A stretch of 64,000 nucleotides of DNA from Deuterostichococcus epilithicus. Its lineage: Eukaryota; Chlorophyta; Trebouxiophyceae; Prasiolales; Stichococcaceae. The translations under genes were made by a program, and so were the position numbers. The DNA lies in assembly GCA_033439295.1 (NCBI GenBank), contig JAVTLE010000003.1, positions 2,170,001 through 2,234,000 of the forward strand, in the 5' to 3' direction. This document shows positions 5,949 through 60,993 of the stretch, one piece after another. How positions within the stretch are numbered: the stretch's first letter is position 1; every line of letters begins with the position of its first letter. Below the pieces are notes generated by a model. The model worked only from the letters and a program-made list of their open reading frames with translations. It was not told where the DNA came from and ran no database searches.

Positions 5949-8900
5949 TCATCGGTACTCATTGTCACTGGTGCCCTCCTTGCCGGCGGGCGCCGCACCA
6001 CCACACTTTGCCGCCGGCAGCGTACCGTGCGCGCAGGCGTGCCGCAGCAACGCCTTGAGACTGGAGGTGAAGGCATCATCGCGCGGGTGAACCGCCCCCA
6101 TCTCGTCAAATCTCACCAGTGTGTGCAGCGGGTTGACCGAGTACAGGAAGATGTGCTTGATCTACAGTTCACCATGACGTACGTTATTGCACTATGGCCA
6201 CGTCAGACCTGGTAAGGCGCCTGAGTTTGGGTTTTAGGGTTTCGGGTGTAGGGGTTTCTCCTTTGGTCCTGCGTAGACGAAAACTCAGGGACCAAAGGAG
6301 ATACAGGAGCTGATGTGGAGTGGGAGTGAGTTCAGTGTGCCGCAGCGGATGGCGAGGCAGCAGGCAGCGCTGTCATCACGGATGGAGGCCCTTGCGCGGG
6401 GCCAGGGGCTGCGCTGCTGCGGGCAGAGCTGCGGGCGCCGGTGGCGCTTCCAACTCGGACCAGGTCCAGGCAATGAACCTGGTGAGGTTGCAGCATGGTG
6501 TAGCCTCCGCTCCCCGGCACCCCAGCACTCGGAGCCGGATGGAGATGTGAAAGGAGCATTGCCCACCTGGTGCAGACGCTGCGTCATTGCAAGGCGCGAG
6601 GTGCGTCCATGCCGCTGCTTTAGGATGTCTATGATGTTGGCGGACTCCAGCTCCGCGGGGTCCACCACTGAAGTGAACTCCGAGTAGTCGACCAGGTCCG
6701 CAAACGCCGAATGCTGGTTCAGGTACCTGACACGCCAGGAACAAGGGGAATCAGGAGAAAGTGACTCTGTCCCCCACCATCTTGAGGTCCGAGTAGTCGA
6801 CCAGATGGGCAAACGCCGAGCGCTGCGCCAAGGCCGAGGCTGCTTCCAGCATTGCAGGGGTCTGAGATTCTAGGGAAGCGCGGGCATGAGTGAGTCCTGT
6901 GGAGCGGCGGCCGTTCAGCACGGCGTCGCCTCGGCGGTGGTAGCGCCGTGGCCCGGCTCGGCAGTGTGCTACGCTTGTGACCGGCTCATGCCGACCCGTT
7001 CAGCATGCTGAAGGAGTCAACAGGACAGAATACAGCGTACAGAGCCGGATTCTGGGCAGGTGGGCCGGCGCACGAGCAGCACAGGCCTCGGCAGGTCGCA
7101 GAGTCAAGCGCTGACATTTCGGAGGGTTCGTGCACTCACTTGTCGAAGTAGACTGGCACGGTGTCGGCGGCCATACAATCCATGCTCACGTGGCGCGATG
7201 GACCATCCCCGTACGGCTGCATCATCGAAAGAAGACAGGTGAGATACAGCAGGAACAGCGCGTCGCACAGGGGGCACCAGATAGAGGTGATCCAGGACTG
7301 CGAGAGAAGTATGGGCACCTGGAGGCAGAACCACGAGGCGTGGGTGACCTGCATGGGGGCAGCCGAAGCGGATCAGAAGGTGTGACGCCTGGGGGGCTGC
7401 TGCGGCTTGGGCGCTGGCTGACAGCACGGCTGCCGGCTTATTCATCCTCGTTCGGAGTCGTGCGGCCGGCAGGCGCGACGGTCCTGTTCGTGGCCGACCA
7501 AGGGCAGCTACTGCGAGACGCCCGCGTGCAGGGTGTGGCAGGCCGGGGTGTCAGTGCTGAGTCGGCCAGGACGGCGGCTGCCGCGGCGGGAGCACAGCAC
7601 GAACATGCGACCTAACCTCAATCGCTGAGCGCGGCGGGCACACACCTCGTAGATGAGGCTCTGGTTGAATCTGCCGATGTTGCCACGCGGCTCGTGGTGG
7701 ATGCACTTCGGCTCCTTCGCATTGCACTGGTCCTTCAGCACCTGGCGCAGAGGGAAGCGCACCTGCACAACACCAAGTGCTGAACAGTCCAGGCACGGCA
7801 GAAGTGTCCCAATGCCCCTGCATCAGATGCCTGCAATTCCCGAGCACACTGCCGCGCTGCACGAGTGGGTGGTCGCAGCTGGCAGCCTCCGGCAGCAGCA
7901 GCAGCAGCAGCGCCAGCAATGGAGGCGACAGCAGCAGCCAGGTCCGTCACCAGACTCCTTTTACAAAACCGCCGGGCAAGCAGTCTCACCCGCATGCTCT
8001 CCATCGCGAAGGTCTGCTTGAGCGCGAGCGTCGCCTCGCGGTCGAAGGGCGTGTGGAAGTAGGCCGAGCCGGCCGACAGGTGCAGGTGGCCCGGCCATGG
8101 CACGGGGATCGAGTGCCTGCGCTTGCGCTCGGGCCCCATTTTCTCCAGGTCGCCGGTCCACACCTCCACTGTCAGCACGTGCAGGTGCTGCGCATGCTCG
8201 TGGCACAGCAGCGTGCACGCCTCCACCTGCGCGGCGCGGTGGGCGTTTCTTGTGTGGGTTTTCCCCTGTTTTCCTTTTCTGATCAAATGTCGAGATTGTC
8301 TGGCATGGAGCACGCCCACACCCATGACCGCTGTGTGTCACAGGTCGCAATGCATACTGGGCACTACCTGCTGCACACAGCAGAGTCTCAGCACTGCGCA
8401 TGATCCGGTGCCGCCTCAGGACTCTCATTAGACCTCACGAGCAGTGATTGATGTGGTGAACCTGGCCTCAGGTTGCCGGCCGCAGATCAAGGCACATCGG
8501 CGACGGCGTTCTGCCACCGCATGCGCTGCGCCAGGTGTTGCATCCTGATGTGCAGCGCGCGGGTGTGCAGTACTCGTGTGAGAAGATTGAGCCTCATCCA
8601 CACAGCAGAGGTACCTTCGTGTACATTTTGTTGCCAACGCCGCAGCCGCCGAGCAATTCTGCCTCTCGCCGCCCGATGGCAATGAAGTGCGGCTTGTCCC
8701 GGTAGTGCGGGAAGTCCGTCTCGAAGTTCTCCCAGAACTGCTGCACCTGCGTTGGTGGTACGCACTGCACGATGAGCTGCCTGCATCGAACCTGAGGCCG
8801 TTGCAGAGGCGCCAGTAATAGGGAATCACTTGCATGATCGCCTCCGACACTGCATCTGAGGGCGTCTGGGCAAAATGCGTCGGCACATGGGCGCCACGCC

Positions 8901-13668: not shown

Positions 13669-14059
13669 GCTGCAGCTAGAGATGCGGCTGCTGCTCAGGT
13701 GGAGCGGCTTCCGAGCAGATGCACCTCAGATCAAGCTGATCGTACTAGCCGAGTCTCGTTTTTGCAGGCAGAAAAGGGCTCCGACTGCCTCACGAGCCGT
13801 GCTCAGTCCTGATCACCCGCGGAGTCAGGTGCACACTGCACAGAACGCGCAGTCGCTGGTCGACCTGAGCAAGCAACCAGGTGGTACCGGAGCTCTGAAG
13901 GTGACTTTTCGACCCCCGCTCATACTCGCTTCAGTTGCCTGCTTGCCGAGGCACGCTTCACACACTGCCAGGTTTATCTGCTTTTGCTCGTGCACGTAGC
14001 AAGGCTGAGACCTGCTTCGACACCGGACGGCAGTGTGAACGCTCAGAGGCTTCCTTGCG
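13669..14059. promoter_or_regulatory. Divergent promoter region, 391 bases
   Basis: This lies between the start codons of the secreted propeller-like gene (-) and the p47-type gene (+). No TATA box or repeated motif stands out. Confidence 0.4.
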
Positions 14060-17877: not shown

Positions 17878-20399
<2,522 letters not shown>

Positions 20400-21095: not shown

Positions 21096-21829
21096 CTACT
21101 CGTCTTCATCGTCCTCGTCTTCTTCGATCTGCTCCATCGGGGCTGCCTTGCCGGACTTCTTGGCATCGTATGCCGCCTGCTCCTTCTTGTGCCGCGACTG
21201 CAAAGCCAGTTCTGACCATGTCAAGGACTGCCTGGTACAGCAAAATGATAGAGGTGTCCATTATGGATGGAGCAGTAAGTCTTCGGCAGCGCCAGCCCGC
21301 CGACAATGATGCTGATCGGCATAACGCCGCCGTCAGGATGTGCAGCTGCCTCACAGCAGTGCGCCTCAGCCCGCATCCGGCAGCATGGCGGCTTGCTGCC
21401 TGGTGCACGCAGCGCTTGACAAAACCACCTGCAACCTTTTGACGTGACACAGGACTGGCAATCAATTCGTAAGGCACCCCCAAGCATTCTTCGCACCTTG
21501 TCCGTGTCCGCCATGGCCTGGTACGGCTGCTTTTCCGCATACGTCAGCTCTCTCCAGCGTCGGCCCAGCTCCCGCATGATGTCGGGGGAACTCAGGTCCG
21601 GGTCCTCGGCCTTGACATTCGCACGTGTCTCGTTGCTGAAGAAGATGTATGCCGAGCGCGGCTGCATCATGGGAAACTATAATCACGTCAGAAACATGCA
21701 GTGCTGCAGGTGTAGCTCGGGTCCTTGACCTTATTTGACTTCCGCCCGCATCTTGCTGCTGCAAAAGATGTATGCCAAGCGAGGCTGCCACACCTTCTTA
21801 GGCGCGTCTTTGTCCCTTTTCGGGGCCAT
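21096..21829 (-). CDS. Small HMG-box (HMGB-type) DNA-binding protein
   Basis: It is a 100-residue nuclear architectural protein that binds and bends DNA. Three exons are phase 0 throughout: 21794-21829 (MAPKRDKDAPKK), 21497-21661 (PRSAYIFFSNETRANVKAED, then GRRWRELTYAEKQPYQAMAD) and 21096-21197 (SRHKKEQAAYDAKKSGK and an acidic tail). The single HMG box has the basic N-terminal arm and the C-terminal Asp/Glu tail of HMGB proteins. Both intron positions match those flanking the HMG box of SSRP1 elsewhere in the window. Intron 1 contains a decayed copy of the start of exon 2. Confidence 0.93.
21736..21790 (-). repeat. Decayed copy of exon 2 start (HMG-box intron 1)
   Basis: It reads PRLAYIFCSSKMRAEVK against PRSAYIFFSNETRANVK of the real exon (21613-21666), 123 bases away. 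The copy includes the CAG before the exon edge. Confidence 0.9.
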
Positions 21830-36500: not shown

Positions 36501-39500
36501 CCCGTCTCGACCTCGCGGGCCGAGTGCAGCGCCGTGCTTGATGGCGCAAATACTCATGCATCACAGACTGTGCAACTGCGATTCTGCTGCGCCCAAGGGC
36601 TGTGAGCCACCTGTGCACCGACCTGCTCCGGCACAGCTGTAGGTCGCAAATGTCGGTCGAAAGTTGAGTAGCCATGGTCGTGCCGAGCTCCGCATGCGCA
36701 CTGCCAACAAGTATCTGTACTTTGCGTGCTGGCCACCAAACAGCCTGCTTGGCTGAGGGACCTGACTGGCGCTCCAACCCAATGCTGTTCAAGGCTGAAG
36801 CTGCGCCTCTCGCGGCTCGGCTCCTGCGTGCCGCTGCAAGTCTGACAGTGCGGGGTGCAGTGCGGCCTGCTGCAGCCATGCCCATCCGATACACGTTCGT
36901 CCCTGGGTGCCTCTGAACCGCCCTCCCTGCAGCGTGGTGCTGCAGACCCAGGACTACAGGGTGTAGTGAACACACTATGCTTATCGAAAACATGCTGAGA
37001 TGCAGACCCTTTCACATCCAAGAACCTATCGCACCTCATCTACGCATGCAGCTCACGTGTGTCCCCTGCCGCATGGTGCCTGCAGAACCAGGACTACCGG
37101 GTGCAGTACGACGCGCTGCAGCGGGTGTTTGTGCTGCCCAAACCGCACAGCCCCTACACGCTCGTGGTGGCCGCCCTGGACCCGCCCATCCGCAAGGTGC
37201 GCTGCACAGCCCCATTTTCCCATATGTATAAGGTATTAGATAGCAACAGTAACAGACCCCTCATGCACGGAAGGGTTCCACAGGGACAGTAGGAGGTATC
37301 ACTTCTTGGCATTTCACGCTTTGACACCTGCATGCAGCGGCGACCGTGGGCTGTTGCAGGAGCGCTGCATCGCCTCTCTGACCTGCCTAAACCCTGCTGC
37401 CGCAGGGGCAGACGCACCACGAAACACGTGCTGCATTGCCTCTGACCCCTGCTTCCTGCTGCCGCAGGGGCAGACGCACTACGCGCACGTGCTGGCGCAC
37501 TTCCACTCGGACGAGGAGATGACGCTGGCGCTGGACCTGACACAGGAGCAGATTGACGCCAAGAACGAAAAGGTGCACCCTGCCCTAATCATGTGAACCC
37601 CGTGCACGGGGAATGCCGATCATCAGCATGCTGCGCATGGCGGCGCATCTCACGAAGCCAGCCTGCGCAGTGGCGGGGTGCCGACTGGCGCATGGGTTTG
37701 CTGTGCGTTCACGGCCGTTGTGCTCGGCAGAAATTGCGCCACGCCTCGTGATCCTGGGTTCGCGAGGGTGCTGAATGCGTGCCGAGTCCAGGGAAGCGCA
37801 CATGGATTTACAAGATTTAAGCATTTCGGTGGTGTTTTGAGGCTGTTTCACGCCCGTGCTGCGCTGCAGCTGGGGGTGAGCTGGCACACAGGCTGGCCAG
37901 ACCGGGGTGGGAGAAATCCGCTAAGTTATGAGCTTTCTGCTGATGGTTGGGTCGCTGCTGGCACTGACACCTGTCCTGCTGCGGCGCTGCAGCACAAGGG
38001 CAAGCTGACGGACACGCTGGCGGGGCCCGGGTGGGAGGTCTTTGCCAAGGCGCTGCGGGGGCTGAGCGGCGCACGGCTCACGCGGCCGGGGCAGTTCCGC
38101 TCGGCGGACGACGGCCATGCTGTGCGGTGCTCGTACAAGGTTCGTGTCCTCGTCCTCGTGGATGTTGCCGTCGCTTAAGTCGCAGCGAATGTTTGTATAT
38201 CGAGGCCATGCCTGGCATTGCTCCTGCACAAAAGGTGCGTCCTTGGTGTTTTTGGGATGGAACTGCGTTCGAACGGACGTGCTGCTGGCAATGACTCTGA
38301 CGCAATATCTCTGCTGACGACGGGCACGCCATGTGGCTGCTTCTGGAAGGCGAGTCGAGCCATTATTTTGCCAACCAGTTCGTGGCAGCCTATTGTACCT
38401 GTACCCCTGGTGCAGCGCCAGCTGGGTTGCCCATGAGCCACCATGCCCATGCTGGCTTCTTGACGCAGTCCTGCCTCATCGACAAGCTGCTGCTGCTGCT
38501 GCCAACTGGAGGCTGGCAGAATGTGCCTGTTGGGCGTATGACAGAGCGTTTGCTTGCCTGGTCAACTCTAGAAGCTGGCGCCGCTGCAACAGCGCACCCG
38601 AGGCCTCACATCCAGCAACGACCCCCCCTCACTGACCCCACCCTGCAGGCGGACGACGGCTACCTGTACCCCCTGGAACGCGCCTTCTTCTACGTCCACA
38701 AGCCGCCGCTCCTGCTGCTGCACGAAGACGTGGAGTCTGTGGAGTTCTGCCGCCAGGGCGGCGGCGGCGCCGCGTCGACCAAGACCTTCGACCTGGCCAT
38801 CCGCGACCGCAACGACCAGGTGCGCTCGTGGTGCTGTGCGGTCCCCTGGTCGCTGATTATTGATGCAAGGCGCAAGGTGCAAGGTGCAAGGTGAAGGTGC
38901 TGTCCCTGTGCGGTAGCGCAGGTCTCAACGTTCGCTTGCAAGACAGCCAGGCCAGAGGACTTTGATCGCTCGACAGAAAAAAAGCAGCTGGCGTTGCCCT
39001 GCTGCATTTATCAGTCGGAGGTGATGTTACGATGTCGCACATGGCAATGTGCCTCCCGCAGGAGTACCTGTTCCGGGGCATCCAGAAGGGGGAGTGGACC
39101 AACCTGTTCCAGTTCATCAGCGTCAAGGGGCTGCCGGTTGCCAACCTTGCGGAGGCGGAGCGCGGGCCCGGCGGCGCCGCGCGCACCCTCGAGCTGGACC
39201 TTGGCGACGATGTGGACACCGGTGCGGCTCATGGATGTGGCACCTACCTGTAGGCCCTCACACAGCAAGCGCCTGCCTCCGGCCGGCGTTGCCGCCTGCA
39301 GCGGCGACGGCGTCGGCAGCGGCTGTGACACTATGACACGGCGCCTTGCATGCTGTGGAAAGGAGCCGCATCTCGGCCTGCCGCACACGTTCTCTGCTAG
39401 CGAGCGGCGGCGCCGCCTGCCACTGCTCGTTGGTGGGCATCCGAGCACTCAGCTTCAGCAGTCGCGCAACAGACACATTGCACCTCGGATAGCAACACAC

Positions 39501-41085
39501 ACGCGGCGCTTCTGGAGGCTGTTTGCTGCAAGCAGGGCTTGCCAGGCATGCGGACCGGGCCGACAGCAAGCTGGAGCCTCATTTCCGCGTGCCGCATGCC
39601 TCTGCAGGCATTGCGCGCATGGATGCCGAGTCGGACGAAGAGGACGAGGACTTTGACGCCGGCGGCGCGGCGGAGGCGTCGGACGACGACGACGACGAAG
39701 ACAGCGGCGGCTCCGACGCAGAAGAGGTGCGAAAACATATAGCCATGTGAACGTGTGACTGCAAAACTTGGTTTCGAGGTTAACTCCCCAACAATGTTTA
39801 GCATCTCCTCAGCATCCGAGCCGCGGAGCGGCCCGGCCGTGCCTGAGCCAGTAGCAAGTCTGCCAGTTTATCCTCCTCTGTGTCCCTCAGCCAGTGCAAA
39901 CATGAACGGCGAGCATCCCCACCCACACGCAGCGGCGCAGCTGAGTATCATCCAGGTCAGCCTGGTGCCTCGGCTGACATCGCACTGCTCGAGCGTGCGG
40001 GGCCGGGGCGAGTCCCTGGTATCAGATAGATCGCCTGCAGCACAGTGGCTGCATGGAGGCCGTCGTGGAACCTGACCAGCGCGTCACAACGGGCACCTTC
40101 GCAACCTGGTGTGTGCATTGTCCAACAAGATGGCGTTGAGCCAGCCTGGGCAGCCAGCCATTGTGCAAGCTTCTGGGCAGAGCCAGACGAGCCATATTCG
40201 CAGAGCCATACTCATACACCTGCAAATCGGTGCTGTGCCTGCCGCAGGCGCCGGCGCCAAAGCCGAAAAAGCGGCCGGCATCGGGCGACGGCGGCGCGGC
40301 GCCCAAAAAGGCAAAGGCGCCGCCAAAGGAAAAGAAGGAGAAGCCGGTCAAGCTGACCAAGAGCGGCAAGCCGGTCAAGCCGCGAGCCAAGAAGGACAAG
40401 AACGCCCCCAAGAAGGTGGTTCTACTCCATGTATTCCCCACCGACGATGCCCAGAGTCGCTTCCCCAAGCTGTGCCCCCCTGCGAGCGACCTGCTAGCGA
40501 AAATCGCTATGCAGGCGGGAGGCCGTCATACACGGCTGCCAGCAGCAAGCTGTGAGGTCAGTCATTCCTACAAGCTGTCCCTGGTTGTGCCAGCCCTAAT
40601 GATGCGTTCACATCATCTACACTGCAGGGCCTGTCGGCGTTCATGTTCTTCTCCAACGCCAACCGGGAAAAGGTCAAGGCGGACAACCCAGGCATCGCGT
40701 TTGGTGAAGTCGGGCGGAAGCTGGGCGAGCTGTGGCGCGCCGCCGGCCCCGACGAGAAGGCGCCCTTCGAGAAGCAGGCCGCGGCGGACAAGGTGCGAAA
40801 GATATTCAGCCTTCCTTTCAGCCTGTCTTAATCACATGGCTGCTGGGACGCGGGAGCACGGCACGGAGGGGATGGAGGCGTACACCCAAGAACCTGTTCC
40901 TCAACCCCTGAATAATTATCGTTTACCCCTGAACTGCCCTGCAGGAGCGCGCCAAGGAGGAAATGGAGGCGTACAACTCCAAAAAGGCCGCTGATGCGGA
41001 CGGCGACGCGGATGGCGACGCAGATGCGGATGCAGACGGCGGCGACGAGGACGCGGGCAGCGTGGGCGGCAACGAGTCTGAGTAG
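33577..41085 (+). CDS. SSRP1: SSRP1, HMG-box subunit of the FACT histone chaperone
   Basis: With SPT16 it moves H2A-H2B during transcription and replication. Exon 1 from ATG 33577 to 33636 reads MGEPGKHQFGNITLGSRGGA; exon 2 continues SQGQLTIDQQGIVWRKSGGG. The N-terminal PH-like and POB3 region follows: DIESLEWTKIPRGGALNVRQ, DYEKLRDISNANFGQDLK, SGRNWGDAVVDNESLQFSVG and DEVMLEFMPDVAAGEKEDTL. The middle double-PH domain includes VFLDAVGQFTGDAGDSQDPV, GRFSIELYSSYLKLVGQ, DYRVQYDALQRVFVLPKPHS, LSGARLTRPGQFRSADDGHA, YLYPLERAFFYVHKPPLLLL and FRGIQKGEWTNLFQFISVKG. An acidic stretch (about 39620-39725), a Lys-rich linker, the HMG box (LSAFMFFSNANREKVKADNP) and an acidic tail end at TAG 41083-41085. The intron after LPDVTQ has a GC donor. 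Six or more decayed junction copies lie in its introns. Confidence 0.95.
34357..34380 (+). repeat. Probable decayed copy of an exon end and donor (SSRP1)
   Basis: It reads VHFRDQ before GTATCC, against VGFREQ before GTGTGC at 34270-34287. Because FREQ joins DYEKL well in the family, this block is better seen as an intronic copy than as an exon. Confidence 0.55.
35197..35250 (+). repeat. Decayed exon-start copy, first of two (SSRP1)
   Basis: CTGCAG followed by VQRGKDD repeats the acceptor and VQQGKDE of the working exon starting at 35404. Confidence 0.8.
35292..35340 (+). repeat. Decayed exon-start copy, second of two (SSRP1)
   Basis: It reads AQQGEDEVMLEFVPA against VQQGKDEVMLEFMPD at 35404. 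Flanking intron sequence (GTGCCGGCC, CACCATCGA, TTGCC.CTCTGTC) is repeated too, so the unit is a true tandem duplication of about 95-112 bases. Confidence 0.92.
35636..35672 (+). repeat. Decayed exon-end copy (SSRP1)
   Basis: CAGGAGACGCCCGCCTCCCAG repeats the exon end at about 35530-35550 (EETPASK), 119-120 bases downstream, with the donor lost. Confidence 0.88.
36043..36102 (+). repeat. Decayed exon-start copy (SSRP1)
   Basis: It reads VFLGAVGQFTGDAGDSQ against VFLDAVGQFTGDAGDSQ of the working exon at 36162, 119 bases upstream of it. Confidence 0.92.
36378..36422 (+). repeat. Decayed exon-interior copy (SSRP1)
   Basis: GTGCAGCCGCGGGGCGGTTC with CACCGAGCT follows the order of GTGCTGGCGCCGCGGGGGCG at about 36243 in the preceding exon. 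It is the weakest of the SSRP1 copies. Confidence 0.55.
36931..36965 (+). repeat. Decayed exon-start copy (SSRP1)
   Basis: TGCAGACCCAGGACTACAGG repeats TGCAGAACCAGGACTACCGG at 37081, 140 bases downstream, including the acceptor AG. Confidence 0.9.
37391..37435 (+). repeat. Near-identical exon-start copy (SSRP1)
   Basis: The acceptor and start of the GQTHYAHVL exon (at 37468) are present twice, 64 bases apart. The first 24 aligned bases are identical across the acceptor. Either AG could be used, so which one is spliced is not certain. Confidence 0.9.
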
Positions 41086-43328: not shown

Positions 43329-46300
43329 ATGAGCTCGCAGCCGCTTAACGAGCTGCTGCTGCTGTCGACCCGGCCAATCCTGCCAGCACTGGGCCTCGCC
43401 TCAGCGACGCTGCTGGTGCTGTGCCTCGTGCTCCTGGCAATCAGGTCGCGTGGAAACGCGTCCATCGACAGCTCCAAGAGAGTCGTCGCCAACGGCGCGG
43501 CAGAGTCGCAGCAGCAGGCCAATGGCACGCCGGCGAAGCCGGTCGTGCGCATCCTGTTTGGCACGCAGACCGGCACCGCGGAGCGCTTCGCCAAGCAGCT
43601 CAGGTAGGCTTTTAGAACCGGCACTATTTAGGGCATGTTGGTGGAATGGTCTCACACGCTCGATTGGTGGGAACGGACCAGTAAGAGCATATGCTGGCGG
43701 GTGCTCTGGAATCAGGCCCCGCGTGGCGCGCTCGGCTGGCTTCAGTTCAATTGGCGCACGAGCCCACTGCGCCGGCTGGTCTGCTGCTGCACAAGTAGCT
43801 AGCAGTTGAAAGTATCTCCATGGCGGTCTGGATGCGAAGGCTAGCGGGCCAAATTCCAAGGGACGGCACAAAGGCAGAGGAGTCCCAACATGAAGCGCAG
43901 CCGAATTGTTCCCTGGAGGACAGGCAGCACAGCACACTCGTTCAATGCCCGAGCTCACGCCCTGCATGCCGATGGACATGCTGGCATGCCAGCAAGCTTC
44001 AGCAGCTGTCGAGCCGAATGCTCCCGCTCGTGTGCAGGTCTGTGCTGGCGCTCCGCTACGGCGACGGCACGGACTTCGTCACCGAGGACGTTGAGGCGTA
44101 CGCCGGCGAACAGCGGCTGCCCAAAGAGGAGTGCGTGCTGTTCCTGATGGCGACGTACGGCGACGGCGAGCCAACAGACAACGCAGCGGACTTCTATGGC
44201 TGGCTCACAAAGTCGGCGGAGGACGCCGACAATGGCACCGGCGACGACGCCCTGCTCAAGGTGGACAGTCTCTGATGGGGACATCCCTTGTGGAAGAGCC
44301 TTGAGTTGAGCCATCCTGCTGTGCACTCCTGTGACACGAGCGCCATGGTGGCAGGCCGCACATGCACTCTGCTGGCGACGCGGCAGTCACCTGGTGATGT
44401 TGATGCCGCTGCAAGACTTTGCGGCGCTTCCCAATGCACGACGTCGAGTGTCACAAGGGAAAGCCAGCCTTCTAGGCAGAGCAGGCTGGGCAGGCGCACA
44501 GCTAGTCAGTGCTCTGGTTCATCCTCGAATTGTTCCTGCAGCGCGCCATGCGAGCTCCTCACATGTTTTCATGACCCAATCCGCTGCGCGCGGCATGTTT
44601 TCCCCTCATATCAATACTGCATTTGCATCGCAGGGCTTGACGTACGGTGTGTTTGGGCTGGGCAACAAGCAGTACGAGCACTTTGCGGCGGTGGGCAAGC
44701 GCATGCACAAGGCGCTGGCGGCGCTGGGCGGCACCCCCGTCTGCCGCCGTGGTGACGGCGACGACGACGAGGACATCGACGCCGACTTTGACGCCTGGCA
44801 AGCAGACCTGCTCAAGGGCCTGGATGCCTCGCCGCTCGTCTCCGTGCCAAAGGTCCGGCCTTGTGATTTGCTCCATTCCAGTTTGTTACCTGGAAAAGTA
44901 GGCACATCTTGACGCCTGGCACGTGGCTCTGCTGACGGGGCTCGCCGCTCGTTGATGAGCCCAGCGCAGGAGTAGATCCTGGAGCTGTGTTGATGAAAGC
45001 TCTTTGCACCCGAGTGTGGACCAAGTGCGAACTTCCGCTCGAGGATGAGGCTGATCTGGCAGCTCCGGCAGGCAGGGTTCAGGCTCCTGTGGTTACCCGG
45101 CATAGCTGGCATACTCGTACAGTTCCAGGTCTTGCAGATACAGGCCAAACCTGCCGCAGCGGATGGACTGCCCCATCCTTGCGACGCCGGAACCAAACTT
45201 ACATTGACAACTCTAAACACCGCTGCACCGAGCGGAAGCGAGCTGCTGGATCAGGGGAGTCCATGTCGCCATTCGCCTTCGACTGCAAACCTCACTCGAG
45301 TTCTTCCATCTCTGAGCAGGGCGGGGACGAGCTGCTGGAGCAGCGGCGGCTGTCCATGTCGCCCGAGGCGGTGCCCGCCTACGAGGTGGAGGTGCTGACG
45401 GGCACCGCCGCCCGCGAGGCGGACCGCCTGCTGCAGGTGCGGCCAGAACTCGAAATTTCTCATTCAAGAGGTGTCTTAAGCTTAGTACGTCTGTGCGTCT
45501 GTACCTTTGTGGCAGCCAGCCCTGCTGCGGATGCGCTGTCCCATGTCTGTGTGCGACTGCATCGCACTCACAATGTAACGGCAGGTCTGGAGCATCCTTG
45601 CACAGCCACCCTCACTTGTCACGGCGTGACCCAGACCTGCCATTACACACAGGGCAACGGCACGGGCGCGGACAGCCACAACCCATACGAGGCACGCCTG
45701 GCGACCGTGCGTGAGCTGCACCAGCCGGCCTCGGACCGATCCTGCCTGCACGCTGAGCTGGATGTCAGCGGCTCCCAGGTACGGCTGCCTTACGTCAAGC
45801 AAGCCGTCCTGAGGGGATGGCCGCTTGGGATGGTACCGAGTGTCAAGAAGGGGGGTATGTGCAGCGCGCCAGCCAGCCTCCGGCCGCTCCTGCCGGCACG
45901 CCGAGCTGGTCGTCAGCGACTCCTGGGTCTGGGAAGGCTTCCCCTTCGCACATTGCATCATCCGCAAGGCTTGAACAGCAATCGTAGTTGGATCAGGGTG
46001 CGAGGGCGCCACCAAGTTGTCTTGATACAGCCGGGCTCGGGCCCACTCCTGCCTGCTCACCAGCCTGGAGGTCAGCAGGCTCCATGTCGGGATGCACGCC
46101 CTTTCTCGGTTTTGCATACGTTCCCTGTCCAGACGTCCCTCCCGGGGTTCCGACCTCCTGCAGGGTTCTGCGGGGGCACCCGCACCTTTGGATGCAGCTG
46201 GGTGCTGAGGTGTCGAGAAGGGGCGCTCAGCAGTGGTCCAGCCGCGCCCCAGACCGCTTGCGCCTGCTCGCAGAGCTGAACATCAGCTCAACCAGGCTGC

Positions 46301-49206
46301 TGCACCTGATGCACCTATGGTGGGGTAGGGCACCATGGGTGCGTAGGTTCAGCGCCTTGGTTGGGTGCATTGGGTGCACCCATGGTGCCTCACGTCATGC
46401 GACCCCCCATGTGCGCAGGTGTAGTATAAAATCGGCGACAACGCGGCAGCGCTGCCGGAAAACAGCCCGGAGCACATCCCAAGGCTCCAAGGGCTGAACC
46501 TGCCTCGCCTGCTCCCCCCCCGCAGGTGCAGTACGACACCGGGGACCATGTGGCGGTGCTGCCGGAGAACAGCCCGGAAACGGTGGCGGCCGCCGCCGCG
46601 GCGCTGGGCCTGCCCCTGGACACGGTCTTCTCGCTGCGCCTGCCGCCCGGCAACCCGCAGCAGCTGTCGCCGCCCTTTCCAGGTGTGGATAAGCCCTGTG
46701 TTTCTGGCCCTAGCATGTGCCCCTCGCAGCGCCACAGCATGACGCACCACAGCTCATGCACGTCGCCAGCGCAGCTGCGCCCGCGCCCAGCGTGCACTGC
46801 TTGTGCAGCCGGTCCGCTGGGCCGCCCGCGCCACCCCTCGGAACCCTGTCGCGCTCGCTGCCCCCGCAGGCCCCATCTCGCTGCGCAGCGCGCTCGCGCG
46901 GCACGCCGACGTGCTGGCGCCGGTGCACCGCGGCGCGCTGGAGGCGCTGGCAGCGTTCGCGGGCGACCCGGGCCAGGCGGCGCGGCTGCGGTGGCTGGCC
47001 TCGCCTGACGGCAGGGCGGAGTTCCAGGCGTGGGCCGTCGGCCCCGGCCGGACGCTGCTGGAGGCGATGCAGGAGTTTTCCAGCGCAAAGCCGCCGCTCG
47101 GTGCGCGGTTCAACAACTTTCGACTACGTTCAATCTTGTGCCATGTCCCATACCCTTCTGCCTCCTGGCCGTGCTGCTGAAAACAGTGCAGGACTTCTTC
47201 AGCGCCGAACTGCCGCTCGATGCGTGCTGTTGGACGACATGCGACGCACCTTTTCCGGTGGACATTATACCCTTATTGGAACGCAGACAGATACGACGGG
47301 CAGCCGTCTGGCATGGCCACGAAGGACCAGCACTCCCAGTTGCCACAAGCAAGTTTTGGCGCGTGGACCGTGACCCTGCGGCGCATGTCAAACCTTTCCG
47401 CCCCGGCGGGCCGCCGCCGCCGCAGCGTTCCGCTCTGAACGACTCTCGACCCGCTGCCGCGCGCAGGCGCCTTCTTCGGCGGCATCACGACGCTGCTGCA
47501 GCCGCGCTTCTACAGCATATCCTCCTCGCCAAAGGCGCACCCGCGCCACATCCATGTCACCTGCTCCGTGGTGGAGGAGCGGAAGGGCACCGGCCGCTTG
47601 CACCACGGCGTCGCGTCGACCTGGCTCGGGCGCCTGCCGGCAGGTGTGGCTGTCACCTTGGACATCGCAAGTCCAAGGGTCTACGCTGGGGTCTCTAAGT
47701 CCAACGACTTGCACTCAGCTGTCTCTGAGCATTGGCAATTTCATCTGGTCACTTGGGGAATCTCCCTGCGTCTGGTCAGGGTGGCAGACAGAAGGCAGAC
47801 GGACAACGTGAGCGCTGAACACTCGATTGGGCGAAGGGACTTGTGGACTTGCCTATGCCTTGCCCCTGCCTGCGTGCTGCAGCGCACTGCGCAGCAGCGC
47901 ACAGCCAAGCCCCCGTGAACTACGAGAGGTCACTCGTCGTCAGCCAACGTAAATGCGGCCAGAGGCGCGCTGACCCGTCTGCATCAGTGCAACCCCAGCT
48001 CACTGCGCTGCACTGCTGTACTCTTCCCCGCATGCCCATGCAGGGTCCAAGGTGCCGATCTATGTGCGCAAGTCGACGTTCAAGCTGCCGCTTGCGATGG
48101 CGACGCCGCTCGTCATGATCGGCCCCGGCACTGGCCTTGCCCCCTTCCGCGGCTTCCTGCAGGTGCACCTCGCATTGCCCGGAGTTGCCTGCCCGCACCC
48201 CAGCCCTGTTCATGGTCTGACTCGCGAATGATCGACACTCAGCTCCAGCTGTGGCAGCAACAGGAGGCCTGACGCGCGAACAAGGGTTCCACATTGCGTG
48301 ACGTCACAGCTGCCCCTGGAGCGATGCGAACAAGGGTTCCAATCCCTGTCTAGAGCCATCTGCCATCTGCATGGTTGTCATCCTTACATATTCTTACCTG
48401 CAGGAGCGGCAGGCGGCGGCGGCGTCAGGGCAGGCGCTCGGCCCAGCGCTGCTGTTCTTCGGCTGCCGCCGTGCCGGCCACGATTTCATCTACGAGGCCG
48501 AGCTGCGGGGCTACCAGGAAGGCGGCGCCCTCAGCGGCCTGGTCACCGCGTTCTCCCGCGACGCCCCGCAGAAGGTGTATGTGCAGCACCGCCTGGACGA
48601 GCACGCAGGTGAGGCGTCACTGGGCTGCCGGGAACATGTTCCCTGCCAGTCCTTGCCGGAGTGTTCGCGGCCACGGTTCTGAGTACCGGGATGCTGCTGG
48701 CTCCTGCGAGCAGCTGGAGATCGGAGCCCCTTTCGTCGCACAAGGCGCTGCCCTTGACACCAGTTGTTGTACCCCTGGGAAAACCCAGACGCAGACTCGC
48801 CAGCCTGCGATTGCGGCACTGCTGGACATGCTATGCCATGCTGTGCCCATTGTGAAGTCCTTGAGAAGTCTCTGCAAGGAAGGGTCCACGATGAAGCAGC
48901 TGCAGTGCAACACCGGCCCTGCTCAGATGGCGCCACATGAAACGGGCACGGTTCAGCCGCAGCGGCCGCGGCATCAGGCCAGGATCAAACCTGCTGCACT
49001 CTGCGCCCGCAGACGAGGTGTGGCGGCTCCTGTCGGAAGGTGGCGGCAGCCTCTACGTGTGTGGCGACGCAAAGCACATGGCGCGGGACGTGCACCGGGC
49101 GCTCATCGCGCTGGCGGCGCGGCAGCGGAAATGCAGCGCGGACGCCGCCGAGGCCTGGCTCCAGCAGCTGGCGGACGCAGGGCGCTATCAGCGCGACGTC
49201 TGGTGA
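43329..49206 (+). CDS. NADPH-cytochrome P450 reductase
   Basis: The enzyme passes electrons from NADPH through FAD and FMN to ER P450s. The ATG at 43329 begins [20 protein letters not shown], with a membrane anchor [20 protein letters not shown]. The FMN domain has [35 protein letters not shown] and [20 protein letters not shown]. The linker and FAD domain have [40 protein letters not shown] and [20 protein letters not shown] with [14 protein letters not shown]. The NADPH domain has [47 protein letters not shown] and [20 protein letters not shown], ending with the expected aromatic DVW at TGA 49204-49206. About eleven exons were traced. All expected cofactor motifs are present. Its introns carry at least seven decayed junction copies. 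Confidence 0.95.
44906..44960 (+). repeat. Decayed exon-end copy (P450 reductase)
   Basis: It reads [14 protein letters not shown] against [14 protein letters not shown] at 44787-44829, about 122 bases downstream. Confidence 0.85.
45232..45275 (+). repeat. Decayed exon-start copy (P450 reductase)
   Basis: GAGCTGCTGGATCAGGGGAG, then TCCATGTCGCC, repeats GAGCTGCTGGAGCAGCGGCG, then TCCATGTCGCC, of the exon starting at 45320, 88 bases downstream. Confidence 0.9.
45867..45930 (+). repeat. Decayed exon-end copy, first of three (P450 reductase)
   Basis: It reads [19 protein letters not shown] over an exon end that reads [19 protein letters not shown] (45719-45779). Confidence 0.92.
46029..46080 (+). 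repeat. Decayed exon-end copy, second of three (P450 reductase)
   Basis: CACTCCTGCCTGCTCACCAG, then CCTGGAGGTCAGCAGG, follows the same exon end more loosely. Confidence 0.75.
46236..46296 (+). repeat. Decayed exon-end copy, third of three (P450 reductase)
   Basis: CGCTTGCGCCTGCTCGCAGA, then GCTGAACATCAGCTC, aligns with CGATCCTGCCTGCACGCTGA, then GCTGGATGTCAGCGGCTC. Confidence 0.75.
46419..46470 (+). repeat. Decayed exon-start copy (P450 reductase)
   Basis: GCGCTGCCGGAAAACAGCCC repeats GTGCTGCCGGAGAACAGCCC of the exon starting at 46526, 107 bases downstream. The copy also has CGCAGGTG at its start, as the real acceptor does. So this intron holds copies of both of its flanking exons. Confidence 0.92.
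47170..47226 (+). repeat. Decayed exon-end copy (P450 reductase)
   Basis: GTGCAGGACTTCTTCAGCGC repeats ATGCAGGAGTTTTCCAGCGC near the exon end at 47054-47101, and CTGCCGCTCGATGCG matches CCGCCGCTCGGTGCG at the donor, 121 bases downstream. Confidence 0.9.
48276..48342. repeat. Short direct repeat in a P450 reductase intron
   Basis: GCGAACAAGGGTTCCA is present twice, 51 bases apart. It is not derived from an exon. Confidence 0.8.
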
Positions 49207-50472: not shown

Positions 50473-50926
50473 CTACAGCTTGCGGCCATACGGAGGCGGC
50501 GGGGGAGGCGGTGGCGGAGGTGGCGGAGGGCTGTATGCAGCCTGCTGCAGCTTGCGGCCGCCGTAGGGCGGCGGNGGGGGAGGGGGTGGCGGCGGCGGCG
50601 GAGGGCTGTACGCAGACTGCTGCAACTTGCGGCGGCCATAGGGCGGCGGCGGGGGAGGCGGTGGCGGAGGTGGNGGAGGGCTGTACGCAGCCTGCTGCAG
50701 CTTGCGGCCGCCGTATGGCGGCGGTGGCGGGGGAGGAGGTGGCGGCGGCGGAGGGCTGTATGCAGCTTGCTGCAGCTTGCGGCCGCCGTAGGGCGGTGGC
50801 GGCGGCGGAGGTGGCGGCGGCGGCGGGGGAGGGTACGATGCCTGCTGCAACCTGCGGCCGCCGTAGGGAGGCGNCNGGGGAGGCGGTGGCGGCGGCGGCG
50901 GGGGAGGGTACGATGCTTGCTGCAGC
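50473..50926 (-). repeat. Six tandem coding units of about 72 bases
   Basis: Each unit codes for a (R/K)LQQ(A/S)(A/S)Y spacer and a long polyproline run. Spacers are more conserved than the number of prolines. Confidence 0.9.
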
Positions 50927-55052: not shown

Positions 55053-58000
55053 ATGTCTCTAGAACAGCCACATCCCCCACAACCCGACAGCACTGCGATC
55101 GCCAAAGCAGATTATGATGAAGGCCATGTTCACCAAGCAATGATCCAGGCCGGCTCTGCTACAGCGCCAATCGACATCAGCCGAGGCGCGTCCACAGAGT
55201 GCCGGCGCACGGCCTCAGTCAGCAGCAGCCTTGGCGGCTCCCTGCAGCACAAGATCAGCATGGGAAGCCACCGCAGCATGAGCGGCATGCTGCCATGCCT
55301 GACGGTCATCCGGGTGGCGCCGCACGCGTTCGATGCGTCCACGGCCGGCGCCCCCAGCGCTGCAGTGGGCGCTGCAGCAACCAGCAGGAGCAGCGGCGCA
55401 GGCGCTGCCCCCGCCGTGGCCAGCGCGTCCACCAGCTCGCCCGCAGGCAACTGGAACGGCGACGCTGTCGATACTCGCTTGCGCGAAACAGCCGCAGCCG
55501 CAGATGACTCTCACGCAGCGACCGCCGGCGCAGCGGCGACCGGGGCCGGCAGCGCCAGGGAAGCTCACAGCGGCAGCGGGCCGGCTGCGCATCCACAGGG
55601 GCCGGCACGGTACACCAAGTCGCTGCTCAAGGCGGTGCTGCAGCTCATGGGCTGCAAGCCGCGCCATGCGCACAAGGCGAGACGCTTCCGCCCCTCTGAC
55701 ACTGTTGGCACGCTGATTCTGGCGGGGCCCACAACACGAGTGCATCAGTGCCACCGCGCTACCTTGAACCTTCGCTTCCAGAGGGGAAGTCTCATAAGTG
55801 CGAAGGCGGGCGCCAGCCCCTGCTCTCATTCCAGGCTTCGTTCCCAGCAGCAGCTATAACCCACTCTGCGCCGCACCACCGGGCTGTCTCTCCCGGCCAT
55901 CGATCCCTGCAGACAGACAAATCTCGCAAGCGTGCCCAGCCTGTCCCTGCCGTGCGCAGATGAGCGAGCGTCTGTTCGCGGCGCTGGACGTGCAGCTGGC
56001 TGCGGACTCGGGCGTCGCCACCGGCCGCTTCGCGTCGCTCGGCGGCGGCCGCTGGGCGCTGGACATTGCCCGCCCCGCCTTTGAGGAGCTGCTGCGCGTG
56101 CAGCTGCAGTCGTTTGCCTACGACCAGGCGCATCACATGGCGGACCTGCGTGTTGCCTGCTCGTGAGTCTTGTCCTTAATCTTCAATAAACGATCGAATG
56201 GTTTGAAAGAAGTCAAGTCAATATGATGGGCGGGCGGGTTTGCGCACGCCCAGGCGCACCAAGCACCTGCGCGTCGCCTGCTCGTGAGTCGCAAAAGAGT
56301 TTGTATAAAATTTCCAAGACCAAACCCTCTTGGGAGTTTGAGAGTTCATGCCGGCGTTGTCACACAGATGCCAAGCCGCGGGCAAGCAATCGCAAAACTG
56401 GGCGGACTTGCGCACTGCTTCCACCCTCTGCTGCCGTGCTCCCAGCACGCCGCTGGCAACACTACTGGGCTCTGCAATTCGTGCAAACAGCCCCGTGACT
56501 TATGGGCCCTGTCCCCCTGCTTCCTCACGCGCAGGGTTCAGGAGCGCGGTCCGGCGCCACGGTGCAGCCGTGCGGCACCAGCGGCATACCCCTGGATTGC
56601 ACCGCCGGCGCCAAGATGTCACATCCCTTCGTCTTACCTCTGTTCTCAGCGTGCAGGACCCAGGAGCGCCGATCTAGCGCCACGGTCGTCACCGTGCTGC
56701 TGTGCGGCGCCTCCGGCCCACCGGCAATCCTCCAGTCGGAAGACTTTGAACAACATGGACAAGAAACCCCACCTTCCACACACGCAGGATCCAGGAGCGC
56801 CGGTCCTCCGTCACCGTGCTGCTGTGCGGCACCAGCGGCACCGGCAAGTCGACGCTGGCCTCGCTGCTGGCGGGCCGCCTGGGCGTCAGCAGCATTCTTT
56901 CCACGGACTCGGTCCGCCACATGCTGCGCGGTTTTGCGCCCGAGGCGGCCGCGCCGCTGCTGTGGGTGTCTACCTACCAGGCCGGCGACTGCATCAAGTG
57001 AGTGCCCGACGGCCTCTGTGCTGTGCCTTTTGAGTCGGTGCTGTTTTGACGGGCCGCATTTGTGGCGGCAGAGAGCTGCTGCGTGATGTCCACCTATTAG
57101 GCCAGCGGCTGTGCCAAGTGCAGGTTTGATAGCCTCCGTTCTGGGGCTCATGAGCACGGTCAGTTTGAAGTGTGTATGTTGTGACGTGCTTTCAGCCCTT
57201 GGTCAGGGATCGAACACACGCTTCCGGCATGCCTGGATGTGGCCGCACTGGGTCCGGATCTGAGACCCCCTTCTCGATTTGGCTCCCTGGGGGGTGGCCG
57301 TGCTGGCACTGTCTGCCGGATGCATGCTGGCGAGCCTCACAAAGCTGCATCTGTGGTTTCGTGCGAGATGACGGCTGCCTCATCGTGCAGAGAGGCGGCG
57401 CCGAGCAGCGGGAACACTGCGGACGCGGCGGCTGCCGCGACCAAGAAGCAGGCCACCATCATGGTGGGCGGTCAAGCTCCCCACCCTGGACCCTGCACCC
57501 TACACCCATTTCGCATCGCTCAGTCAGCTGACACGCCGCAAGTCCACTTGCGGCCATCGGCTGCTGCGCCCTTGCAACCCGTGCTTGGCAAACCCTGCCG
57601 GACACCATGCCTGCTGAACCCCCGTGTTGACCCATGCCTGACGTGTGTGGGATTCCTTGGGATTTTCCCTACAGGGCTTTAAGGCACAAGCGGAGATGGT
57701 GACGTGTTCAATTTGATCGTTCACCCTACAGGGCTACAAAGCGCAGGCGGAGATGGTGATGCACAGCCTGGGGGCGCTGGTGGCCGGGTACGAGGCGCGC
57801 CGGGAGAGCATTGTCATCGAGGGCGTACACCTGGCGCCGAATGCCGTGATGCGGCTCATGGCAGCGCACCCCTCCATCGTCCCCTTCCTCGTCTACATCA
57901 GGTGGATGCGCAAACGCTTTGCATGTACAAATTCGGTTGCGGCTTTTACACTCAAGGGGCGTCGCGGCGCGGCGTCTGCCTGCAGCAGGCAGCCACCAGC

Positions 58001-60993
58001 AGCACGCGACAGCGGCTTGGAGGTCGACAAAGCGTGATTTGGATTGAAGAGACAGGCTCCTGCTGAGATCGTGATGCTGCCTCTCCGGCTGCGCTGCAGC
58101 TGCGTCCCCAAGAGGTGTGCGCCGCAGCAACGAGGCGAGGCACTGTGAGCGGTGTGCGGTGCATGCAAGACACATGACGCTAAACCCCGGGATGGAGCTG
58201 GATGACAGTCGAAATCACGTCCCTAGGCTGCATCTGAACGAGCCTGTTAGTGTGCGGCAGCAACAAGGCCAAGCACCACGCGCGCAATGCACGTGACGCT
58301 GGTTTCCTGTGCGCCGCAGTAATGAGGCCAAGCACCGGGAGCGGTTCGCAGTGCGTGCCAAGCACATGACGCTGGACCCCGCCGGCAACCGCTACATCAA
58401 GTACATCCGCAACATCCGCACCATCCAGGTGGGCTCAGGGTTTTGGGTTGGAGATGAGCTGCAGCAGCTGCACCTGTTTTGACCCCCCATCACGGCTGCG
58501 CCCATGAATAGCCCATGATGTCCCATGTTTCACGAAGGAGGCGAGGGCATTATGGTATTCACGCGACTACCCGCAGCCTGTCATGGCAGGCCGCGCGGTG
58601 TGCTTGCAGTTGTCGGTCCTGGCAATATCCGGATGCGGCATTTGATGCTTCATGCACTCGGCTGCGGAGCATCACCTGAAGAGGAGGCGCGCCGGCCACC
58701 CTGCATCGTGCGCACCCGTTGGCTGGAGTCGCGGCCGGGAAGACGCCCCTCCCCCTGTCCCGCAACAGTGCACCTCAAGGGCAGATGGCGAACATCCAAA
58801 ACATGGACCCCCGCCTCCACGCCAGGAGCAAGAGCAGTTGAGAATCGAGAATTGAGAATTGAGAATATCCCCATGGCAGGAGTATCTGGCGAGGCGCGCG
58901 GACCGGCACTGCATCCCGAAGGTGGACAACACCAACGTGGATCGCAGCGTGGCCACGATACACGCCACCATCACCGGCGCCCTGCGCCGGCGCACCCTGG
59001 TGTGCTCCCCTCCCTCGCTTGTGGCTTGGATCGTTCGTGTGGTCCCATGGTCTGGATGGCATGCACGTGAGTCAGAGGGGGCCAGATGCGAAGCAAGTCA
59101 CACGATAAAGCCTGTCATCTTCCTGGGAACCGACCTCCAGTCTGAAGGTGCCCGCCAGCATTGCAGCTGCGCTTCACAAACGCAAGCAGTAAACGAAGCT
59201 CTTCAACGAAAGTCCCAAAACTCAACGTCTGCTTACCGCCGCAGGGGGAGCCGCTGCTGGACCCGCGCAATGGCACCGCCCGGGTGGTGGCGGCAGAGTT
59301 TGCCGCGGCGCGCGGCGACACCTGGTCTTCGAAGGACATGCTGCAGCTCATCCGCCGCAAGAGCCAGGTGAGCCACGCCCCGTACCTGTAGACTGAGCGG
59401 ATTCTTTCGGGAGTCTGCCGTTGACGCATAATGCCCGGCCGCTCCTGCTCCAAGCACTCGCCAGTCCATCACGCGACGCCATCCCTGATGCGGTACCATC
59501 TCGACTCGGACCCTGCGGCTGCACATCCTGCAGGGGCGGACGCCACCGTCGCTGGCGGGGTTGCGGATGACGGCAACCATGCCGCCGCTGCGCGAAGGCC
59601 GCCCGCTGGTCATGTCCGGCGATGAGGAAGCGGTCGCGCCGCTGCGCAGTGAGGCTCCTCATCAGGNCTCCNGCGCGCGCGGCGGCGGCGGCGGCGGGGC
59701 GCCCGGTGCGGCGGCGCAGCTGCCGGTGCTGGAGCGGCGACAGGCAGCGCCGCGCGCGGCGAGGCTGCAGCTGCCGGCGCGGCGGCGCCAGATGCGGTCA
59801 GGGACGGCGGCGGCGGCAGCGGCGGCGGCGGCATTTCTGCAAGCGGCACCGGTGCCGCCGGCGGCGGCGACGGCGGCCCAGCGGCAGTACGGGGGCTGCA
59901 GAGCCTTCCTGCGGGTGCATGGCCGCTGGAAGGCGTTGGTAGCCTGCCAGCAGCGGGGTGCTCCGCTGCCACCCGCGGCGCAGTCTGCGTCACAGCTGTG
60001 GAGGCCGGCGGCCTTTCTGCGGCGAGGCCTGCATTCAGCAGTGCAGACGGAGGCGGCGCTGGCGGCGCAGCTGCGCAGCCGCGCCGCTCTCGGCTGAGCG
60101 ACGAGGGCAGCAGGAGCGCCGCCGGGGGCGACGGCAGCGCCGGCAGCGGGGCGGCGGCCACGCCCGAGGCAGTGGATGCAGACGCCGCTGCGGCCGCAGA
60201 GCGGCCACGCAGCAGCGAGGGCTGCGGCGTCAGCAACCTGAGCCGCTTCCGCCGGTCCGCGACCGACCCGCGCGGCAACCGCAGCAGGCGGACGGCCCTG
60301 GGGCTGTACTCTGGCGGCGGCGGCGGGTGGCAGCACTCCGGAGTCGAACGCAGCAGCCACTCGGGTCACTCTGTCGAGCACAGCGGCCTCTCAGGCGCGT
60401 ATTATGTTAAGGACGCAGATTTTGCAGGCCATGCGTTATTTTTGTAGTCAAGCTGGCAGCGTCGAGCAGCTGGCTGTTTGCTTACCATATGCTGACAACG
60501 CCACGTCGCACCGGCTCAGGCTTCACCAGCTCATGCATGCTTTGAAGCCCGAGATATCAAACCGTCTAGCAGGCGCGTCTCTCGGCGGCGGCAGTACCTC
60601 GGCGATGGACACAGATGTAGACGGCGACTCGCATTACCGCTCAGGCGACGGCTCAGAGGCGGCCGTCGGCCGTGGATGGAGCACCGAGGTGCGGGCTTTT
60701 GACCTCTCCACTGCATGTTTTCTGCTGACGCTGAGGAATTGTACGCCCTGAAATATGAGAGAATCCCAATACAGCTACTTTGCAACACAAGCGATGATGC
60801 TCAGTGTTGCAAAGACGTCGACAACGATATGCTTCGCAGGATTTTAAGGAAACCTCCTGCCGCCTCATGGTTGAATGCTTGGTAGCAGGTGGGATCCGTG
60901 GCAGACAGCGCCACAGAGGGCTCAGACGGCGGCGGCGAAGAAGAGAACCAGAGTGAGGGCGCCGGGGCGAGCGATGGCGTTGGCGTGTCATAG
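55053..60993 (+). CDS. LPA1-like P-loop protein (2-phosphoglycerate-kinase-related)
   Basis: Plant LPA1 (LOW PHYTIC ACID 1) proteins affect seed phytate; they are related to archaeal 2-phosphoglycerate kinase, and their activity is not settled. The ATG at 55053 opens a long Ala/Ser-rich N-terminus. [20 protein letters not shown] then HK ends exon 1 (55676, GC donor). Exon 2 (55960-56162) has [20 protein letters not shown]. Exon 3 (56788-56997) has the Walker A loop [20 protein letters not shown], then [20 protein letters not shown] and [12 protein letters not shown]. Then come [94 protein letters not shown] and [18 protein letters not shown]. The C-terminal third is Ala/Gly/Ser-rich with two unread bases (59667, 59672), so frames there are less sure. 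It ends GASDGVGVS at TAG 60991-60993. Its introns hold at least seven decayed junction copies. Confidence 0.9.
56255..56290 (+). repeat. Decayed exon-end and donor copy (LPA1-like)
   Basis: CACCTGCGCGTCGCCTGCTC with GTGAGTC repeats GACCTGCGTGTTGCCTGCTC with GTGAGTC at the working donor (56143-56169), 122 bases downstream. The copied donor is still intact. Confidence 0.92.
56527..56590 (+). repeat. Decayed P-loop exon copy, first of two (LPA1-like)
   Basis: CAGGAGCGC.GTCC, then TGCGGCACCAGCGGCA, repeats the acceptor side and Walker A coding region of exon 3. Confidence 0.88.
56651..56728 (+). repeat. Decayed P-loop exon copy, second of two (LPA1-like)
   Basis: It reads [13 protein letters not shown] over the real [13 protein letters not shown] (exon 3 from 56788), with the preceding CAGGA.CCAGGAGCGCC also shared. 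Spacing between successive copies is about 124 and 134 bases. Confidence 0.92.
57087..57140 (+). repeat. Decayed exon-end plus intron-start copy (LPA1-like)
   Basis: GTCCACCTATTAGGCCAGCG, then CTGTGCCAAGTG, repeats GTCTACCTACCAGGCCGGCG, then CTGCATCAAGTG (56968-57000). Similarity continues into the intron (AGCCTCCGTTCTG against GGCCTCTGTGCTG), showing that genomic DNA, not a spliced message, was copied. Confidence 0.9.
57666..57703 (+). repeat. Decayed exon-start copy (LPA1-like)
   Basis: CCCTACAGGGCTTTAAGGCA, then CAAGCGGAGATGGTGA, repeats CCCTACAGGGCTACAAAGCG, then CAGGCGGAGATGGTGA at 57725, 58 bases downstream. Confidence 0.93.
58116..58192 (+). repeat. Decayed exon-start copy, first of two (LPA1-like)
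   Basis: TGTGCGCCGCAGCAACGAGG, and later ACACATGACGCTAAACCCCG, repeat the acceptor and exon at 58309-58381 ([10 protein letters not shown]... HMTLDP). Confidence 0.9.
58250..58303 (+). repeat. Decayed exon-start copy, second of two (LPA1-like)
   Basis: TGTGCGGCAGCAACAAGGCC, then AAGCACC, then GTGACGCTGG, repeat the same exon start more briefly, 59 bases before the working one. Confidence 0.82.
58838..58865. repeat. GAGAATT short tandem repeat
   Basis: TTGAGAATCGAGAATTGAGA continues as ATTGAGAATA, about four imperfect 8-base units, in an LPA1-like intron just before the acceptor of the EYLARRAD exon. Confidence 0.8.

Follow-up and report, generated by a model that had tools for sequence, protein, structure and literature searches.

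Decayed copies of exon edges in the introns of the green alga Deuterostichococcus epilithicus

Introduction

Exon sequence repeated in a neighbouring intron is familiar from tandem exon duplication and mutually exclusive exons. A first-pass annotation of a 64,000-nucleotide stretch of the green alga Deuterostichococcus epilithicus (contig JAVTLE010000003.1, positions 2,170,001 to 2,234,000; hereafter the window) described another arrangement, in which introns hold decayed copies of the edges of their own flanking exons. We call such copies echoes. Unlike tandem exon duplication, the process seen in the alga copies just one exon edge of about 50 bp, which decays.

Three other described systems come close. 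In the tandem genomic duplication model of intron gain (Lehmann et al. 2010, PMC2891723), as outlined there, exonic sequence is duplicated locally together with a splice motif and one copy turns intronic, much as in the alga; the model yields a new, duplication-sized intron at a new position, whereas in the alga old introns grow and most duplicates are non-contiguous. PMC3296678 discusses introns gained when a double-strand break is repaired and filler comes to lie between direct repeats; the alga shares the feature of unrelated DNA so enclosed. Repeats of at least 5 bp were sought in that work, whereas those of the alga are about 55 bp long, anchored at splice junctions and extend old introns. 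In the passages considered, both papers treat new introns rather than the junction-anchored growth of existing ones. Introners, as summarised in PMC9860276, likewise change intron content genome-wide; they differ from the alga's case, in which the DNA between the copies shares no element or consensus. Splice-junction echoes were not reported in the titles and abstract openings among the matches listed for the literature, which is a weak kind of absence.

Results

Introns match the edges of their own exons

The assembled genome comprises 46.8 Mb in 21 contigs, and the window is C3:2170001-2234000. We analysed the window together with 17 further 10-kb stretches, L002-L018 (234 kb in all), or with 20 stretches, three having been added to the first set (264 kb). 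Genes were predicted from DNA alone by a two-strand hidden Markov model gene finder, self-trained on the fetched stretches, which returned 544 exons and 493 introns with a median intron of 243 bp and the intron consensus YGCAG/G at the acceptor and GTGMGY at the donor (the slash marks the splice junction). Repeats were counted at 30 bits or more and 20-600 bp apart. In 264 kb there were 115 direct repeats, one inverted repeat and one repeat in the reversed-sequence control; the corresponding numbers in 234 kb were 105, 0 and 1. Palindromes aligned with themselves (59 in 264 kb, two of them seen in the window) were set aside from the inverted count. Separated inverted copies are rejected at 1 against 115 direct.

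The 105 direct repeats fell into 54 exon-intron, 36 exon-exon, 3 exon-intergenic, 12 intron-intron and 0 intergenic pairs. When the annotation was shifted, the respective means were 33.6 ± 5.6, 14.6, 3.0, 36.2 and 17.6; by this comparison exon-intron pairs are enriched, and intron-intron and intergenic pairs depleted. Many of the 36 exon-exon repeats were coding repeats, or else echoes that the gene finder had annotated as exons. The check proposed in the first-pass annotation, that introns be aligned with their own exon edges and with those of other genes, gave a clear answer: at a score of at least 18, 51/491 introns matched an own edge and 0/491 an edge from another gene, with a single match to an own edge in reverse complement.

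One gene could be examined from outside the gene models. The SSRP1 gene of the window has its best matches in an algal transcript of the MMETSP collection (69%), another entry (66%) and Myrmecia (56%), which places the host among the trebouxiophyte green algae. Its predicted exons are mostly matched by a relative's SSRP1 protein. The model and the protein disagree at the small predicted exons 39608-39726 and 39941-39964, where there is no protein hit, and at 33577-33636 and 33921-34004, where protein hits precede the model start. The same protein gave extra, weak partial hits at three echoes (35182-35217, 35286-35369 and 36041-36088), and the segments concerned occur only once in it.

Exon-edge echoes are therefore genuine and genome-wide, and about one intron in ten carries one. 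That they are chance matches or an artefact of assembly or annotation is barely conceivable, even with gene models that are self-trained and predicted without RNA: the copies are diverged, hence not duplicated reads, the relative's SSRP1 protein recovers three of them independently, and the controls yield 0-1 where 115 direct repeats and 51/491 introns were found, so that chance is rejected. The earlier estimate of about 25 copies in the window was fair. Our own list has 22, from 6769 to 58284 (21 entries, one double); a list compiled automatically counts 20 there, including two intronic repeats that are not exon copies and two outside the range first reported, one belonging to both groups. 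The impression that most genes are affected was too strong, since an echo was present in 20/50 gene models and in 17/29 of those with at least eight introns.

The copies are anchored at splice junctions and evenly spaced

Among 57 pairs of exon against non-coding sequence, 34 lay on the acceptor side and 23 on the donor side; the aligned part had a median length of 48 bases in the exon and 5 in the intron. One end of the copy lies at the splice junction and the other sharply inside the exon. As first described, the copies span exon/intron borders, and some carry intron sequence of up to 100 bases; because of these bases we conclude that genomic DNA was copied, and a cDNA origin is rejected for the copies carrying them. 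We denote by d the distance between source edge and echo. Of 68 exon-intron hits, 20 were dropped before counting (d above 240, or an intron part outside -25..30); these were long coding repeats, distant hits and contiguous duplications. Pair limits vary among the tests below, which used 37, 39, 41, 43, 48 or 50 pairs. In 43 first-order pairs the spacing was 120.0 ± 18.4 bp, the copy 54 ± 13 bp and the unaligned spacer 66 ± 20 bp. Second copies mostly lie at about twice the distance of the first, and five exons are flanked by echoes on either side.

Echoes decay as neutral DNA

Mismatch rates at codon positions 1, 2 and 3 were 0.165, 0.197 and 0.264 (52 of the 57 pairs, five being dropped), a pattern expected where an unconstrained echo is compared with a constrained exon. 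Identities centre on 75-80% and reach 90% or more in 2/48 pairs; most events thus look old. The splice dinucleotide was retained as AG in 14/23 acceptor echoes and as GT in 10/18 donor echoes, about as predicted by the identity (mean 0.79, that is 79%). In agreement with the first description, it is the inner junction that decays, while the outer one is retained. The suggestion that echoes serve as decoy or alternative splice sites fared less well: AG/GT retention is no higher than overall identity predicts. Strong splice-site scores do remain in several echoes, as selection for such a function would have it; the signals are not conserved above the neutral level, the codon-position mismatches fit an unconstrained echo, and d modulo 3 is spread 12/17/14. 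We therefore regard selected decoy sites as very unlikely. Since they show neither codon nor splice-site constraint, the echoes look like relics that decay as neutral DNA, not like maintained decoys.

Introns with more echoes are longer

Median intron length rose from 240 bp without an echo to 366, 565 and 775 bp with one, two and four echoes (442, 35, 15 and 2 introns); 73 echo hits underlie these classes, against 2 in the control. By length, echoes were borne by 13/392 introns below 350 bp, 27/99 of 350-800 bp and 2/22 above 800 bp. The slope was 129 bp of intron length per echo (bootstrap 101-158; 485 introns below 1 kb). Without a length preference, insertions of 55 bp predict a slope of 82 ± 20 and insertions of 120 bp one of 147 ± 18; a strict length preference lifts these predictions to 198 and 256, respectively. 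An addition of about 120 bp per event is accordingly favoured, not proven. The lengthening of introns that had been proposed holds in that echo number goes with intron length, while its proposed cause, plain tandem duplication, is not established for most copies. These data point to introns having been lengthened by some form of local duplication.

Plain tandem duplication is clear in few pairs

Tandem duplication across the splice junction, the mechanism originally suggested, is clear in about 4-7 pairs; in most, the intron half cannot be recognised as a copy. Contiguous cases, with a copy at least as long as the spacing, made up 4/57 pairs: 35191/35286 and 37364/37430 in the window, 9178/9311 in L014 (92% identity) and 3772/3879 in L016 (71%). 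Overall, repeat length and spacing did not agree (54 ± 13 against 120 ± 18 bp in the 43 pairs). When duplications as old as the echoes were simulated with introns that change at the echo's rate, 96% gave alignments extending over 15 bp into the intron, against 13/50 observed (the search limited the intron part to 40). A simulation with introns changing three times faster reproduced the observed alignment ends.

We measured the likeness of the intron halves by comparing spacer with outer flank in 37 pairs, leaving out one SSRP1 tandem pair. Against shuffles the combined z was 1.15 and 0.07, and -0.63 in a third scoring; against shifted registers it was 0.97-1.90, and reversed flanks fell below the shuffles. 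For a tandem origin, and allowing for trimming by the alignment, the two scorings would be expected to give 3.7/2.8 with introns changing three times as fast as echoes, 2.9/3.0 at four times and about 0 at six times. Flank comparisons made without controls had leaned to likeness (2.2-3.7), a weak signal that was gone against shuffles. With intron halves that do not exceed shuffles in likeness, plain duplication needs introns that change more than about three to four times faster than the echoes.

We lean against a plain tandem duplication of units of about 120 bp over the splice junction, with an intron half diverged beyond recognition, but rate it close behind the insertion mechanism set out below. 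The spacing would then simply be the inserted length, contiguous cases do exist, the threefold rate that reproduces the alignment stops would also explain why intron-intron pairs are few, and the uncontrolled flank comparisons lean the same way. Set against this are intron halves no more alike than shuffles and the position of the echoes themselves, which sit in introns and decay neutrally and so should not change more slowly than their own flanks; moreover, the plain cases L016 3772/3879 and 35191/35286 keep an intron half alignable at 71-76% identity, which a four- to sixfold rate would not allow. Donor- versus acceptor-side likeness in short introns, examined as a test for new introns, includes several cases in which the gene models took an echo for an exon.

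No element is common to the spacers, and exon margins are special

No shared element was found among the spacers, whose all-against-all scores were close to shuffled; on this ground, and by a k-mer test, a mobile element common to the spacers is rejected. Five stretches were compared in full with the genome by a search that scores best candidates only; in these the spacers had no matches save an overlap of about 10 bases at one exon, and no paralogue with alignable introns appeared. Copying of the spacer from its neighbourhood was rejected, also when other-locus controls were used (same-strand z 1.9 and 2.8); in the latter test one SSRP1 tandem case gave the top score of 27. Random short-range copying at the echo's rate is also rejected. 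It predicts about 97 intron-intron and 43 intergenic pairs, the former assuming a fixed copy length of 55 and a fixed spacing of 116 with a score cut-off slightly unlike the BLAST cut-off of the observed counts, whereas 12 and 0 were observed in 264 kb. Of the 12 intron-intron pairs, four involve echoes and seven are repeats, contiguous or nearly so, at spacings of 37-77 bp; one fits neither class. Exon margins are thus special for one of three reasons: targeting, a mechanism that reads the junction, or introns decaying faster than assumed.

A tentative mechanism of repeated insertion

Our tentative first choice is an insertion of the break-repair type, which would add about 120 bp at an exon margin in the form of an edge copy plus unrelated DNA and be tolerated through splicing. 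Recurrent local insertions of this size would hit exon margins, each re-making about 55 bp of the exon edge and 0-25 bp of the adjoining intron and separating the two copies by about 65 bp of unrelated sequence, perhaps by way of a staggered double-strand break or a template switch, followed by fill-in synthesis and joining with filler. As the duplicated piece would carry or abut the splice junction, the spliceosome could remove the whole insert and leave the protein unchanged. The insertion would survive, the intron would be longer by one unit and the superseded copy would decay neutrally; a minority of events would be plain contiguous tandem duplications. DNA without recognisable homology lies between direct repeats, as in filler from double-strand-break repair. 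We infer that a break was repaired, that copy and spacer arrived together and that targeting, besides selection, favours exon margins.

Three points weigh against break-repair insertion. Plain tandem duplication, given introns that change fast, comes close to it in likelihood; at a sixfold intron rate the flank-likeness test expects a z of about 0 for a tandem origin too, so that a spacer without homology is also what such an origin would leave; and the scarcity of intron-intron events is the main weakness of this reading.

That scarcity is among the observations that would suit a copying of exon edges into the adjacent intron guided by the splice junction, such as DNA repair that uses pre-mRNA or spliceosomal exon fragments as its template. 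Such guidance would also account for the direct orientation and for the clustering of source ends at the junction: of 68 exon-intron hits, only 10 begin further than 25 bp into the exon, and just one of these lies at the usual spacing, the other nine being spaced 196 bp or more. On the other side, many copies hold 7-38 intron bases, the lengths of echo-bearing introns suggest that more than 55 bp were added, and a fixed spacing combined with selection gives junction anchoring as well. We consider it quite unlikely. The wider proposal of a splice-junction-guided duplication, in which almost only exon edges are recopied in steps of about 120 bp and a large share of the lineage's long introns results, possibly with RNA or exon-bound splicing machinery defining the piece, strikes us as unlikely.

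Echoes in the genes of the window

The gene names given at first can be followed in part: Pfam backs P450 reductase, SSRP1 and the HMG-box, as well as a P-loop AAA protein, while exostosin, adenylate kinase and LPA1-like (and p47/UBX) are read from translations only. On the minus strand, the exostosin-like gene has an acceptor-side echo at 6769..6825 (source 6660-6716, d 109, 77% identity), and the head of an HMG-box exon is echoed, outside the gene model, at 21702..21788 (source 21577-21665, d 125, 71%). By eye, the HMG-box echo starts about 9 nt past a plausible donor, AAG/GTGTGG, in the stretch 21668-21801 (minus strand). This short intron may be one duplication unit from end to end, which would make it a candidate case of an intron newly created in the same way.

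The remaining echoes are on the plus strand. In the adenylate-kinase-like gene a donor-side echo at 20032..20069 (source 19918-19955, d 114, 95%) ends exactly at the 5' splice junction. For 14060-20399 the gene finder apparently merged a UBX-domain (p47-like) protein and the adenylate kinase over a 1257-bp intron; judging from the translation, which also supplies the names, the model probably represents two genes.

In SSRP1, exon 35404-35550 has two further edge copies at 35191..35380 (spacings 95 and 112), forming a contiguous or nearly contiguous tandem array, and a donor-side echo at 35635..35672 (d 122). Acceptor-side echoes lie at 36042..36106 (exon 36162-36308, d 118, 78%), 36925..36967 (exon 37086-37196, d 139, 22 intron bases copied), 37857..37913 (exon 37993-38139, d 123) and 40850..40884 (exon 40945-41085, d 91), and the acceptor-side copy of exon 37468-37572 at 37364..37433 (d 66) is a contiguous tandem duplication.

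In the P450 reductase gene, exon 45653-45778 has two donor-side echoes, at 45866..45928 (d 148) and 46028..46095 (d 306), and exon 46870-47100 has one at 47164..47245 (d 121). Acceptor-side echoes are found at 45218..45270 (exon 45320-45436, d 89) and at 46414..46471 (exon 46526-46682, d 107), the latter with TAG at the second codon in the exon's frame. The LPA1-like P-loop gene carries a donor-side echo at 56238..56290 (d 126) that includes the donor GTGAGTC. On the acceptor side, exon 56788-56997 is echoed at 56687..56727 (d 122, called partly as exon by the gene models) and again at 56514..56586 (d 253), exon 57732-57901 is copied at 57667..57702 (d 57), and exon 58320-58428 is echoed at 58250..58284 (d 59) and 58116..58189 (d 192, 12 intron bases copied).

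Other repeats

At 17613-17670 of the window, a piece of about 55 bp of a dispersed repeat is flanked by the direct repeat AGCAGACGAGC. Of the 43 genome matches listed for the query, 40 belong to this repeat, 37 at 95% identity or more; the piece looks like the end of a 5'-truncated non-LTR retrotransposon with its target-site duplication. An intron of the adenylate-kinase-like gene contains about 15 imperfect TGCAG, the genome's acceptor motif, at 19226-19301, and similar DNA occurs on C11 and C12. Downstream of the P450 reductase domains, at 50495-50931, lies a GGC-rich tandem array of about six 75-bp copies, open in several frames and with single N's within. Elsewhere, a dispersed element of about 55 bp was seen in L003 (7430-7490) and L045. 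L042-L044 hold two or three copies of the repeat seen at 17613-17670, 124-240 bp apart, which by eye are parts of a longer tandem unit. Among the nearby-copy dispersed repeats of L042-L045, three resemble tandem transposon ends by eye and one is without explanation; in L045 two diverged copies of the element lie 108 bp apart with unlike flanks, an echo-like pattern outside a known exon context.

Discussion

The lengthening of introns is poorly documented event by event. In this alga the echo stays behind as a dated tag of each event, so that the rate, size and position of intron-growing insertions could be measured within one genome. A single closely related genome could separate duplication from repair models at exon margins.
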